Assembly (NCBI GenBank): GCA_003020965.1
Contig: PXRL01000003.1
Span: 1 to 64,000, forward strand
Length of the DNA: 64,000 bases
Reading direction: 5' to 3'
Source: Halobacteriales archaeon QS_4_69_225
Lineage (GTDB): Archaea; Halobacteriota; Halobacteria; Halobacteriales; Haloarculaceae
Shown: piece after piece, positions 4,882 through 53,267 of the stretch
Layout: every line of letters starts with the position of its first letter
How positions within the stretch are numbered: the first letter of the stretch is position 1
Position numbers and translations under genes: made by a program
Notes under the pieces: model-generated
Database searches by the model: none
What the model was told of the DNA's origin: nothing
What the model saw: the letters and a program-made list of their open reading frames with translations, nothing else

Positions 4882-7143
4882 ATGTCCCGTCGAGAGGGAA
4901 ATCTCGGGGGAAGCGACGAGACGGAACGCGGAGGCGTGGACGTCAACTTGGCGGACCCGGTCCGGGCGCTGGTCGTCGACGACGACCCCGAGACGGCGGA
5001 GGTGGTCGGCAAGCACCTCCGGCAGGGGCTCGCGGTCGACGTCACGGTCGTCGCCGAGGAGACGGGACGGGCGGGGTTGGCCCGGCTCGAGGCCGACCGG
5101 TTCGACGCCGTGGTCGCGGACTACAGGATGTCCGGGATCGACGGGCTCGAGCTGCTGGACCGCGTCCGCGAGCTGCGCCCGCGGCTGCCGTTCGTCCTCT
5201 TCACCGGCCGGGGAGACGAGGACCTCGCGAGCCGTGCGATCTCGGCCGGTGTCACCGACTACGTGCCGAAGACCCCCGGCACCGAGGCGTACGAACTGCT
5301 GGCCCGGCGGCTGGCGTCGGCGGTCGCCAGACGGCGGGCCGAGCACGAGATCTCGGATCTGAACAGCATCAACCGGACGATACGGAAGACGACACAGCGC
5401 GCGGTCGAAGCCGACGGCCGCTCCGGAATCGAGCGGGCCGTCTGCCGGTCGCTCGCGGGCTCCGACCGGTATCTATTCGCCTGGCTCGGCCGGATCGACG
5501 GCGACCGCGTGGTCCCGGCCGCACGGGCCGGCGCCGAGGCCGGCTACCTCGACGACATCACCGTCAGGACCGACGGGAGTCCGGCCGGCTGCGGACCCGC
5601 GGGTCGTGCCGCCCGGACCGGCGAGCCGCAGGCGACCAAGGACATCCGCGAGGACCCCGACTTCGAGCCCTGGCGCACGGCGGCCGTCGAGCGGGGGTAC
5701 GCCTCGGCGGCGTCCGTCCCGCTGGAGTTCGACGACACCCGGTACGGACTTCTGAACGTCTACGCGGAGCAGGCCGACGCCTTCGACGACCGGGAGCTCG
5801 ACGTGCTCGAGGAGCTCGGAACCACGGTCGCCCACGCGATACACCGGGCGACGCTGACCGACCGTCTCGAGGACCAGTACGAGACGCTGTTCGAGGAGTC
5901 GCCCGTCATGGCCACTACCACCAGCGACGAGAACGGCGAGCCAGTCGTCGACAGCTGCAACCGGCTGTTCCTCGAGCGCCTCGGTTACGACCGCGGCGAG
6001 GTAGTCGGACGGCCGCTCGCCGACTTCTACACCGCCGACTCGGTCGTCAAACTGCTGGAGCAGGCCGGATACGACCGGGCCCGCTCCGGGGAGTTCGTGG
6101 AGGAGCGACGGACGCTGGTCGCCGACGACGACGAGCGCGTCGAGACGCTACTCCGGGCCGTCCCCCGGGTGGACGAGACCGGCGACGTCGTCGGAACCCT
6201 CGCCCTCTACGTCGACATCTCCGAGCGCGAGCGCCTCCAGCAGGAAAACGAGCGGCTCGACGAGTTCACCGGCGTCGTCAGCCACGACCTGCGGAACCCG
6301 CTGACCGTCATCAAGGGTCGGGCGGAGCTCGCCAGCGAGGCGCACGACAACGACGAGGACATCGACGCCATCGTCGAGGCCGCCGGACGGATGCAGGAGC
6401 TGGTGGACGACCTGCTCGACCTGGCCCGACACGGCGGGTCGGTCGAAACGACCGAGCCCGTCGAGCTGTCGTCGCTGGCGGCTGACTGCTGGGGGCTGGT
6501 CGACACCGACGCCGCGACGCTCGACCCGCGAGCCGACCTCGTCGTCGCGGCCGACGAACCCCGGCTCCGGCAGCTCTTCGAGAATCTCTTTCGGAACGCT
6601 GTCGAGCACGGCTCGACAAGCCCTCCTTCGCACGCTCAGGAGGACGCCGTGGAACACGGTTCCACGAGCCTTCCCTCGCAAGCTCGGGAAGACACCGTCG
6701 AGCACGGCTCGACGAGCCCTCCTTCGCACGCTCAGGAGGACACCGGAGGCGAGAACGCCTCCGAGCCCTCGGTCGCTGACGCTCCCGAGGACGCCGTCGA
6801 GCACGGCTCGACGAGCCCTCCCTCGCAGGCTCGGGAGGACACCGGGAGCGAAAACGCTTCCGAGTCCCCGATCGGCGGGTCGTCCGACGGGCTGACCGTC
6901 ACCGTCGGCGGCCTGGACGACGCCGAGGGCTTCTACGTCGAGGACGACGGCACCGGCGTTCCACCGTCGGCCCGCGGCGACGTCTTCGAGCCCGGCCACT
7001 CGACCGACCGCGACAACACCGGGTTCGGGCTCTCAATCGTCGAGGGGGTCGCCGAGTCACACGGCTGGACGGTCGAACTCACCGAGGGGACGGAGGGTGG
7101 CGCCCGATTCGAGTTCCGCGGTGTCGACGCGGAGCCGCTGTAG
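4882..7143 (+). CDS. Hybrid sensor histidine kinase (receiver-GAF-PAS-HisKA-HATPase)
   Basis: A 753-residue cytoplasmic sensor kinase. The receiver domain (residues about 25-140) has the acidic pocket VVDDDP and phospho-acceptor Asp80 in VVADYRMSG. A GAF domain occupies about 170-330 and a PAS domain about 335-455. The HisKA phospho-acceptor is His468 in VVSHDLRNPL. The ATPase N-box Asn572 lies in ENLFRNAVEHG and the G-boxes in DDGTGVPPS and GFGLSIVEGV. Directly after the N-box, about 95 residues of repeat (574-669) split the ATPase domain. ATG 4882 is chosen because it opens just before the receiver domain and follows an AT-rich box at about 4847-4858; the frame is open far upstream but that part is not coding-like. 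Confidence 0.9.
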   Translation: MSRREGNLGGSDETERGGVDVNLADPVRALVVDDDPETAEVVGKHLRQGLAVDVTVVAEETGRAGLARLEADRFDAVVADYRMSGIDGLELLDRVRELRPRLPFVLFTGRGDEDLASRAISAGVTDYVPKTPGTEAYELLARRLASAVARRRAEHEISDLNSINRTIRKTTQRAVEADGRSGIERAVCRSLAGSDRYLFAWLGRIDGDRVVPAARAGAEAGYLDDITVRTDGSPAGCGPAGRAARTGEPQATKDIREDPDFEPWRTAAVERGYASAASVPLEFDDTRYGLLNVYAEQADAFDDRELDVLEELGTTVAHAIHRATLTDRLEDQYETLFEESPVMATTTSDENGEPVVDSCNRLFLERLGYDRGEVVGRPLADFYTADSVVKLLEQAGYDRARSGEFVEERRTLVADDDERVETLLRAVPRVDETGDVVGTLALYVDISERERLQQENERLDEFTGVVSHDLRNPLTVIKGRAELASEAHDNDEDIDAIVEAAGRMQELVDDLLDLARHGGSVETTEPVELSSLAADCWGLVDTDAATLDPRADLVVAADEPRLRQLFENLFRNAVEHGSTSPPSHAQEDAVEHGSTSLPSQAREDTVEHGSTSPPSHAQEDTGGENASEPSVADAPEDAVEHGSTSPPSQAREDTGSENASESPIGGSSDGLTVTVGGLDDAEGFYVEDDGTGVPPSARGDVFEPGHSTDRDNTGFGLSIVEGVAESHGWTVELTEGTEGGARFEFRGVDAEPL
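6601..6888 (+). repeat. 48-bp tandem repeat units and hairpins inside the kinase ATPase domain
   Basis: Units of 48 bp (16 codons) begin at 6601, 6649 and 6697, and a fourth full unit is at 6796. Between the third and fourth is a 51-bp variant at 6745, and a partial variant follows at 6844. Each main unit encodes V-E-H-G-S-T-S and then P/L-P-S-H/Q-A-Q/R-E-D, and each contains a hairpin with 7-bp arms and a 3-nt loop (GTCGAGC-ACG-GCTCGAC or GTGGAAC-ACG-GTTCCAC). The arms differ between units but pairing is kept. The first four codons copy the N-box VEHG, so the array may have grown from the N-box itself. Confidence 0.9.
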
Positions 7144-10787: not shown

Positions 10788-11165
10788 GCGGTGTTCAGAT
10801 AAGCACGGCGAGCCAGTCCGTTTCTGCCGGGGAACCAACCGAATCCTGGCGGACTGAAAGGGCGAGGCGCTCTCGGCGAACCCGGACGACGCAAGCCGCG
10901 AGGGACCGAAGGTCCCTCGGCCCGCTCGCGCGGCGCTGCCGCGCGAGGACACCACAGGGAGCAACGCGACCGAGGAGCGTGGTTCGAAAGACGCGACGCG
11001 TCTTTCGTCATTGCGGGAAATCGAAGATTTCCCGCTTGCAGTCAGAACGCCGTGCGTTCTGACGACATCACGAGAGAGCTCCGCTCTCTCGAACGACAGC
11101 GAGTCCCGGGAGCCGAGAGTGCCGAGGGCTTTCTCGACTCCGGAATCCTCATCTGAACACTATCT
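10788..11165. mobile_element. MITE-like modular hairpin element, copy 1
   Basis: Noncoding element filling most of the 478-base gap between the aldolase and hydroxyacyl-CoA dehydrogenase starts. Both ends read GTGTTCAGAT inward (10791-10800, and in reverse 11151-11160). The flanks carry an 8-bp direct repeat CGGAACCG at 10780-10787 and 11166-11173, read here as a target duplication. Inside are back-to-back hairpins, for example GAGGGACC-GAA-GGTCCCTC at 10900-10918, plus the motif TGGCGGACTGAAAGGGCGAG near 10848. Read in reverse it matches the element at 38165-38484 almost base for base outside the hairpin arms. No transposase is encoded. Confidence 0.85.
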
Positions 11166-38154: not shown

Positions 38155-38164
38155 CCGTCCCGCA
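38155..38164. repeat. Left 10-bp flanking repeat of MITE-like copy 2
   Basis: CCGTCCCGCA occurs here and again at 38485-38494, just outside the two ends of the element, as expected of a target-site duplication. Confidence 0.6.
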
Positions 38165-38484
38165 GGTAGTGTTCAGATGCGAATTGAAGAATCCGGAAAG
38201 CCCTCGACACTCTCGGCTCCCGGGACTCGCTGTCGTTCGAGAGAGCGAAGCTCTCTCGTGATGACGAAAGACGCGTCGCGTCTTTCGAACCACGCTCCTC
38301 GGTCGCGCTGCTCCCTGTGGTGTCCTCGCGCGGCGCTGCCGCGCGAGCGGGCCGAGGGAGCCGACGGCTCCCTCGCGGCTTACGTCGTCCGGGTTCGCCG
38401 AGAGTGCCTCGCCCTTTCAGTCCGCCAGGAGTCAGTTGACCGGCCGGCAGAAACTGGCTCGTCGGCCAGTGTTTATCTGAACTG
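38165..38484. mobile_element. MITE-like modular hairpin element, copy 2
   Basis: This fills the 385-base gap between the ligase start and the O-methyltransferase stop. Left end GTGTTCAGAT (38169-38178); right end the reverse, ATCTGAAC (38475-38482). Outside lie perfect 10-bp direct repeats CCGTCCCGCA (38155-38164 and 38485-38494). The body matches copy 1 (10788-11165, reversed) in its linkers (GAAAGCCCTCG, ACTCGCTGTCGTTCGAGAG, TCGAACCACGCTCCTCGGTC, CGCCCTTTCAGTCCGCCAGG). Hairpins differ but still pair: GAGGGAGCC-GAC-GGCTCCCTC (38354-38374) replaces GAGGGACC-TTC-GGTCCCTC (reading copy 1 in reverse). It lacks two hairpins present in copy 1. No protein is encoded. Confidence 0.88.
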
Positions 38485-52556: not shown

Positions 52557-52607
52557 CCGGTTGAGGGTACCATGACACTGTCCGTAATAAACCTGTGCCC
52601 GAGTCCG

Positions 52608-53110
52608 GCGATAGTGTTCGGCGAGGACGAAGTGGCGCCGTTCGGCGGTGATGGCGGTGTTTCCGAACGCCCCCTCCCGCCCGCGGGCCGTGGCTCACGA
52701 ATCGGCCACTCGCGGCTCCCCTGCGGTCGCCGGCAGAGCTTCGCTCTGCCGAGCCCTCGCTCGCTTCACTCACGAGGACGCCGTGGAGCATAGCTCCACG
52801 AGCCCTCCTTCGCAGGCTCAGCGGCTCGACCGAGGCTCCCCTCCGGTCGGCCTCGCAGGTCGCGTCTCGTTACTGCTCGCTGTCTCCGGAAATCAAAGAG
52901 TTTCGGGAGTGAGCGGATCGGAGATCCGCGATCTACGGAAGAGCTTCACTCTTCCGGTATGACGAAAGACGGCTCCGCGAGCCGTCTTTCAAACCACGCT
53001 CCCGTGTCGTCGCCCACGTCGCTCCTCCCGCTCGCTCCTCCCGCTCGGCCTCGCCCCGCGAGCGGTCGGCCCCGTTCGAGGTCCCGCCCGACGCCGGCCG
53101 ACCGGCCGGC
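52608..53110. repeat. Hairpin-array repeat region, related to the MITE-like elements
   Basis: Occupies most of the 711-base gap between the DICT gene start and the broken sensor. It opens near ATAGTGTTCGGCGAGG, similar to the ends of the MITE-like copies (ATAGTGTTCAGATGAGG), but no clean opposite end was found. Inside: CGGCAGAGC-TTC-GCTCTGCCG (52731-52751), GTGGAGC-ATA-GCTCCAC (near 52783-52799), GCGGATC-GGA-GATCCGC (near 52913-52929), and GACGAAAGAC...GTCTTTCAAACCACGCTCC around 52961-53000, the same linker as in copy 2. At 52774-52821 it matches the 48-bp histidine-kinase repeat. No gene seen. Confidence 0.78.
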
Positions 53111-53267
53111 TCTCGCGTAGCGAAACACGGCCCTCCACGGCTCGTCGCCCGACGGCCGCCGTTAGTTAAGCCTCGGCCACGTGGTCGCCGGGGCCACGCG
53201 ACCGCTGGCCGATCATACCCCGTAGACGTGTGCGTATCGGACTCGGCGTTCGACCTGATCGAATCAG

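Follow-up and report, generated by a model that had tools for sequence, protein, structure and literature searches.

Two-palindrome modules in tandem after the N-boxes of haloarchaeal histidine kinases have coding arms that change in pairs

Introduction

The haloarchaeal DNA analysed here (64,000 nucleotides, hereafter the window) raises the question of what kind of repeat can follow the N-box of a sensor histidine kinase and also lie in noncoding DNA. Such a sequence could be a repeat of the protein, a functional nucleic-acid structure, an element moved by a transposase, or a DNA module that has come to use coding sequence as one of its arms. The answer is sought in the anatomy of the units, in how their arms change, and in where they have been inserted.

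The repeat array of the window kinase

A gene encoding a sensor histidine kinase of REC-GAF-PAS-HisKA-HATPase_c architecture (Pfam) lies at 4882..7143 on the forward strand, as do the repeat units described below, and specifies 753 aa from the ATG at 4882. Its HisKA (1.3e-16) and HATPase_c (3.4e-14) domains, together with its N-box, place it among the sensor histidine kinases; the HATPase_c match starts only downstream of the repeat insert. The N-box codons NAVEHG occupy 6595..6612, where GTCGAGC (6601-6607) is the 5ʹ arm of a palindrome whose 3ʹ arm lies inside the insert. The original prediction placed four 48-bp units coding for VEHGSTS-type repeats after the N-box, and these are indeed found in the kinase frame directly behind ...ENLFRNA. 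Unit 1 (6601..6648) contains palindrome 1 at 6601-6617 and palindrome 2 at 6622-6643; unit 2 (6649..6696) differs from it by compensated pairs in both palindromes (GTGGAAC/GTTCCAC and CTTCCC/GGGAAG); units 3 and 4 occupy 6697..6744 and 6796..6843. Absent from the prediction were a 51-bp variant between units 3 and 4 (6745..6795; GGAGGC-GAGAAC-GCCTCC plus CCTCGG...CCGAGG), and a second, decayed copy of this variant at 6844..6876. The kinase frame accordingly reads ...ENLFRNA-VEHGSTSPPSHAQEDA-VEHGSTSLPSQAREDT-VEHGSTSPPSHAQEDT-GGENASEPSVADAPEDA-VEHGSTSPPSQAREDT-GSENASES..., in which GGENASEPSVADAPEDA is encoded by the 51-bp variant. As DNA, the array folds 4.9 sd better than dinucleotide shuffles, none of 200 shuffles equalling it.

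The insert had been assigned to the ATP lid, a location ruled out by a structure model of the catalytic piece (302 residues, 47 sequences). The model instead places the insert ahead of the G1 box, between the N-box helix (residues 108-126 of the modelled piece) and the strand that follows (221-226), and renders it as a low-confidence coil (residues 127-220; pLDDT about 43-59, compared with 84-96 for most of the ATPase core). Because an alignment of insert-bearing kinases shows no variation at the H-box, N-box and G-box residues, these enzymes look intact, and the protein may tolerate the units as a disordered polar loop.

A noncoding copy reported near 52774 is real, although its boundaries shift: positions 52774-52782 are the junction GAGGACGCC, and the unit proper, a copy of the 48-bp VEHSSTS unit, runs from 52783 to 52823. 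It carries the different but perfect hairpin that had been noted (GTGGAGC-ATA-GCTCCAC) and is truncated, with palindrome 2 broken at its 3ʹ arm. A noncoding variant unit (GGCAGAGC-TTC-GCTCTGCC plus CCTCG...CGAGG) occupies 52732..52782, within an intergenic composite repeat that has many copies in the genome. This composite repeat of many hairpins spans 52600-53140; its central unit was retrieved from 14 more places in the same genome, and similar copies are present in three congeneric genomes (G010, G011 and G012). The reading of the 52774 copy as a relic kinase was rejected: the overlying ORF gives no match to Pfam even at a threshold of E 1, and the unit sits inside the intergenic composite repeat. 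The motif is not confined to kinases either, as units are found in unrelated genes. A search of the window genome with a palindrome-2 pattern returned 23 copies, and the reversed-pattern control returned 0. The window also contains a second dispersed sequence, unrelated to the kinase repeat, in the form of a long inverted repeat pair at 10815-11165 and 38164-38459 that is 87-93% complementary over about 300 bp.

Unit anatomy and arm pairing

Each unit comprises, in order, palindrome 1 (GTCGAGC-ACG-GCTCGAC; 7-bp stem, 3-nt loop), GAGC, palindrome 2 (CCTCCC-TCGCAGGCTC-GGGAGG) and ACGCC. Unit size ranges from 45 to 51 bp, equivalent to 15-17 aa. The 51-bp variants, a type also present in an ornithine cyclodeaminase/mu-crystallin (OCD) family gene and in other arrays, follow the same plan with other stems (GGAAGC-GAAAAC-GCTTCC plus CCTCGG...CCGAGG), and 45-bp units have a second palindrome of the type GTCGGCC-GGA-GGCCGAC. 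In kinases, the 5ʹ arm of palindrome 1 consists of the Val-Glu-His codons of the N-box itself and the 3ʹ arm falls within the insert. Many arrays finish with a second VEHG and the ordinary strand (e.g., ...QDAVEHGGESVTVTV); because of this return, the insert amounts to n units with the N-box end duplicated.

The two arms of palindrome 1 are matched well beyond what the encoded residues demand. In both the Val and the Ser codon the third position can take any base, which makes the pair doubly synonymous; these positions are complementary in 253 of 291 distinct units (Val3/Ser3; shuffle mean 122.5, maximum 150 over 10,000), and those of Glu3/Gly3 (Gly/Ser) in 266 of 291 (shuffle mean 145.2, maximum 179 over 10,000). 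Even in first units, in which the N-box is the 5ʹ arm, the two synonymous pairs are complementary in 117 and 118 of 124 cases. Perfect 7-bp stems occur in 232 of the 291 units, with six arm types. Palindrome 2 behaves similarly: across 170 distinct 48-mers, Watson-Crick pairs are formed by bases 25:40 in 164, by 26:39 in 141 and by 27:38 in 154, where shuffles average 82.7, 54.4 and 64.8, and a covariation test on 48 of these 170 gave 95.7% paired and a value of 0.406, compared with at most 0.077 when partners were slid. Among 60 distinct palindrome-2 strings from the pattern matches across genomes of the order, free bases pair in 107 of 120 instances (shuffle maximum 71). A GAGC/GCTC pseudoknot around palindrome 2 was also considered and discarded, its covariation being no higher than in shuffles.

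This pairing reaches into the protein. Residue 9 is P, R, H or Q mostly when residue 14 is Glu, and A, D or G when it is Gln, a covariation that arises because base 25 pairs with base 40. On the evidence of these sequences, the matching of DNA palindromes dictates part of the protein sequence. Contact prediction from repeat-bearing alignments (e.g., window 6601-6843) would be misled, as residue covariation there mirrors base pairing. An ordinary protein tandem repeat, grown by slippage, useful to or tolerated by the kinase and with incidental palindromes, would agree with the runs of identical units in some arrays (L092 and L108) and with the finding that nearly all copies sit in kinases. It is contradicted, however, by the covariation seen in noncoding copies and at sites synonymous in both codons, and residue 9/14 covariation that tracks base pairing also counts against it, leaving this explanation very improbable.

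The strength of the pairing, in coding and noncoding copies alike, might instead reflect palindromes that are functional nucleic-acid structures, such as protein-binding DNA hairpins or RNA elements, maintained by stepwise compensatory selection. Under selection on sense RNA, G.U would be expected as the tolerated mismatch, yet over the six variable pairs A.C-type mismatches are commoner (44, versus 10 of G.U type), which argues against mRNA folding. Since some of the six pairs are under amino-acid constraint, the synonymous Glu/Gly pair offers the cleaner test, and it displays no wobble preference (6 G.T, that is, G.U-type, and 8 A.C mismatches). A reading of the units as mRNA hairpins was set aside for want of a wobble excess. 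Furthermore, Rfam matches in the window are limited to a tRNA, and the freedom of the arm sequence makes a sequence-specific binder unlikely. Selection for a functional structure is accordingly regarded as an improbable source of the pairing, if a better candidate than a protein repeat.

Insertions and empty sites

Recent movement of whole modules into other genes is evident at three sites outside the N-box, each of which bears a unit-multiple insert (99, 96 and 147 bp) and is empty in relatives. In the window genome, the OCD family gene (Pfam 1.4e-85) carries a 99-bp insert (51+48) that is missing in 19 of 19 congeners; with the closest of these, identity is 95.8% across 918 bp on the upstream side and 96.9% across 130 bp on the downstream side. 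A Natrinema gene, whose protein has no Pfam match, holds a 96-bp insert (2 x 48) that is missing in 12 of 12 relatives, one of them partly aligned. The third insert, of 147 bp (48+51+48), lies in the REC-PAS linker of another sensor, where G010 is empty and reads GACGCCGTCGAC. Insertions in the window genus rest on metagenome-assembled genomes (MAGs) that are 72-89% complete (G000, the window genome, and G010, G011 and G012). A fourth copy outside the N-box is a 48-bp unit in an intergenic repeat at GAGGACGCC (L010). The predicted independence of the repeat from kinases is thus borne out by units in the OCD family gene, the Natrinema gene, the REC-PAS linker and intergenic DNA. Together, synonymous covariation and insertion into unrelated genes, the latter a further point against a protein tandem repeat, identify a palindromic DNA repeat with coding potential rather than a repeat at the protein level. 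In the REC-PAS gene of G011 (L308), a unit of 41 nt that carries a new, perfect palindrome (CCTGGG-TCG-CCCAGG) shifts the frame between REC and PAS; if this is not a MAG error, the palindrome was kept and the protein lost.

The insertion sites resemble the unit junction (G/A)ACGCC, with the empty Natrinema relative reading AAGGCG, and the kinase N-box AACGCCGTCGAGCAC resembles it likewise. Of the orthologues at one N-box, L257 and L264 lack units, and L260 contains a 45-bp insert with a 3ʹ arm matched to the arm of the host. No target-site duplication was found at the empty/filled sites, where the overlap is at most the 3-bp GAC of the OCD family site; in a comparison with MITEs, which have terminal inverted repeats and target-site duplications, the empty sites show exact unit multiples and the same overlap of at most 3 bp.

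Exact-unit insertion with no clear duplication, the hairpins in every unit and the intergenic copies would also suit non-autonomous elements mobilised in trans by a hairpin-reading tyrosine transposase, either REP-associated or of the IS200/IS605 type. However, of 7 genomes searched for Y1_Tnp (PF01797), 3 contain it; it was not detected in the window genome (G000) or in three relatives (G010, G011 and G018), yet G000, G010 and G011 have 31-42 model matches each. The genomes are incomplete, so this absence is weak evidence. The insertions, moreover, follow similarity to GACGCC or the N-box. No enzyme for unit movement was found, and transposition in trans is considered doubtful, slightly more so than a functional structure. 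The exact unit lengths and the sites themselves support recombination at short homology.

Concerted arm change and array turnover

Neighbouring units commonly differ in their arms while each remains matched. Arm type differs in 112 of 145 adjacent pairs and is the same in 33 (22% expected by chance); of these 112 pairs, 85 have full matching in each member. In Halosimplex aquaticum (L173), for example, neighbours with identical spacers have the stems GTCGAGC/GCTCGAC and GTGGAAC/GTTCCAC. Across 43 identical-spacer pairs, 19 differ by compensated changes only, 8 by a single uncompensated change and 7 otherwise, with 9 showing no difference. For palindrome 2, in 72 pairs with identical palindrome 1 and loop, changes are exclusively compensated in 30 (2 to 8 bases), include some uncompensated change in 39 and are lacking in 3.

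The array at one kinase site also turns over between near-identical relatives; orthologous kinases of G000 and G012 bear different arrays. In one such pair (L275 in G000 and L274 in G012), the preceding 60 bp are identical and both arms of the N-box palindrome differ. Correction is not universal, since L108 and L092 (GTAGAAC/GTTCCAC) have long runs in which mismatched arms are unchanged across copies.

These paired arm changes are better explained by block exchange between units or by hairpin-templated copying than by stepwise change. For the arm swaps, gene conversion between units is as good an explanation as template switching. Loops that are reverse complements of one another (GTC in 8 and GAC in 5; GAA in 6 and TTC in 4) are suggestive of template switching, judging from their sequences. 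A loop inversion between orthologues was also sought; in the one clear orthologous intergenic pair found, the loop is the same in both members.

Distribution across haloarchaea

A two-unit protein query had matches in 127 of 392 genomes of the order and in 40 of 95 genera, with carriers including Halorientalis, Halosimplex, Natrinema, Halorussus, Halobacterium, Natrialba, Haloterrigena and Halomicrobium. The original prediction had proposed mapping VEHGSTSP-type repeats relative to the N-box, and across haloarchaea they lie overwhelmingly at kinase N-boxes: 120 of 128 arrays follow N..EH (loci L009-L012 and L044-L232), one of the 120 being in the OCD family gene and not a kinase. Four of the remaining 8 (L129, L130, L137 and L219) come from further along an array, behind EHG units. 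Both the protein query and one genome-contig pattern start with the N of the N-box and therefore favour N-box copies, making the share outside N-boxes a lower bound. Within the genus, about 12 of the 28 kinases whose N-box was inspected, drawn from 30 loci, carry an insert.

Palindrome 2 belongs to a wider hairpin class that extends beyond kinases. Its pattern matched in 100 of 392 genomes, with zero control matches in every listed genome; G090 and G125 have 5 copies of this class each, yet no match to the two-unit protein query. On viral contigs, 33 stretches fitted a repeat pattern and none was confirmed; among plasmids, a single record (Natrinema thermotolerans CP031304.1) matched, in an annotated PAS sensor kinase. 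A bacterial record titled Salinivenus sp. MAG (L203) holds a typical haloarchaeal repeat-bearing kinase and is probably a mis-binned contig.

The original prediction offered two alternatives, that N-box codons seeded the repeat or that the repeat captured the N-box. That the N-box codons belong to the unit stands, but no clean choice between the alternatives emerges. Units that code for VEHG are widespread at N-boxes but seldom occur elsewhere, which favours an N-box origin for palindrome 1, whereas palindrome 2 is of the wider hairpin class described above.

Proposed mechanism and implications

Modules stand in tandem after many kinase N-boxes, with the N-box codons as one arm, and their arms change in pairs. 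The preferred reading, held at roughly 60%, is that these are haloarchaeal 45-51-bp two-palindrome modules that spread by recombination as unit multiples and whose arms are re-matched by hairpin-templated synthesis. Recombination would take place between the junction (G/A)ACGCC-GTCGAG and similar sequence, for which N-boxes would provide a ready-made, many-copy target and GACGCC would serve elsewhere. Mismatched arms would then be re-matched by hairpin-templated DNA synthesis, that is, template switching, a process known to homogenise inverted-repeat arms as described in PMC8604942. Such re-matching would allow palindromes to persist with no need of a function, and the modules are most likely selfish or mutation-driven.

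A bolder proposal, advanced tentatively, is that a self-spreading module adopted the N-box codons both as an arm and as integration homology, such that hairpin-templated correction, and not protein selection, writes part of the protein sequence. If so, every kinase gene of a haloarchaeal genome would be a standing target, with arrays expanding and reshuffling within the catalytic domain, and the residue covariation would be without protein meaning.

The modules are a clear and widespread example, from archaea, of DNA structure prevailing over protein sequence within a conserved enzyme domain, and they show a route by which signalling proteins gain fast-changing loops beside the ATP site. Additionally, hundreds of units with paired synonymous sites could serve as natural replicates for weighing template switching against selection in palindrome matching.

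Comparison with known systems

Protein-coding palindromic repeats are already known in Rickettsia, Wolbachia, Methanocaldococcus jannaschii and the palindromic amphipathic repeat coding elements (PARCELs). In the non-subscription literature searched, no description of the haloarchaeal kinase repeat was found, and the main text of an archaeal REP survey (PMC12306157) contains no word beginning with Halo. REP sequences, tagged GTAG or CGTC, and their RAYTs are described as short interspersed palindromes, some within genes (PMC3733652); the haloarchaeal units, in contrast, are without a clear transposase partner, and their palindrome 2 is preceded by GAGC rather than GTAG or CGTC. In mitochondria of Nematomorpha, coding inverted repeats of up to 284 bp are reported, in which palindrome and protein constraint coexist (PMC6649704); unlike those long repeats, the haloarchaeal units are mobile tandem modules. 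The palindromic repeats with coding potential of M. jannaschii (Suyama 2005, as cited in PMC2229807 and PMC2996958) are likewise archaeal and fused into protein genes, though in another lineage.

PARCELs are tandem in-frame coding repeats with DNA dyad symmetry (PMC2996958), and the haloarchaeal units share these features. However, PARCELs are described there as 25-aa amphipathic DUF285-type repeats of membrane proteins with imperfect symmetry, whereas the haloarchaeal units are 15-17 aa long, modelled as coil, located in kinases and near-perfect in their palindromes, and the kinase has no DUF285-type Pfam match. Rickettsia palindromic elements (RPEs) come close as well: they are palindromic, have an open frame and occur both between genes and, in frame, inside unrelated ones; one enzyme bearing an RPE insert is reported active (PMC2229807). 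Like RPEs and those of Wolbachia, the haloarchaeal copies occur in frame in unrelated proteins and in noncoding DNA. By the same account, an RPE is a single element of 105-146 bp that folds into a long stem-loop, unlike the tandem haloarchaeal modules of 45-51 bp with two short hairpins each. As far as the descriptions can be compared, the haloarchaeal modules differ further in that they centre on a single catalytic motif, the codons of which make up one palindrome arm.
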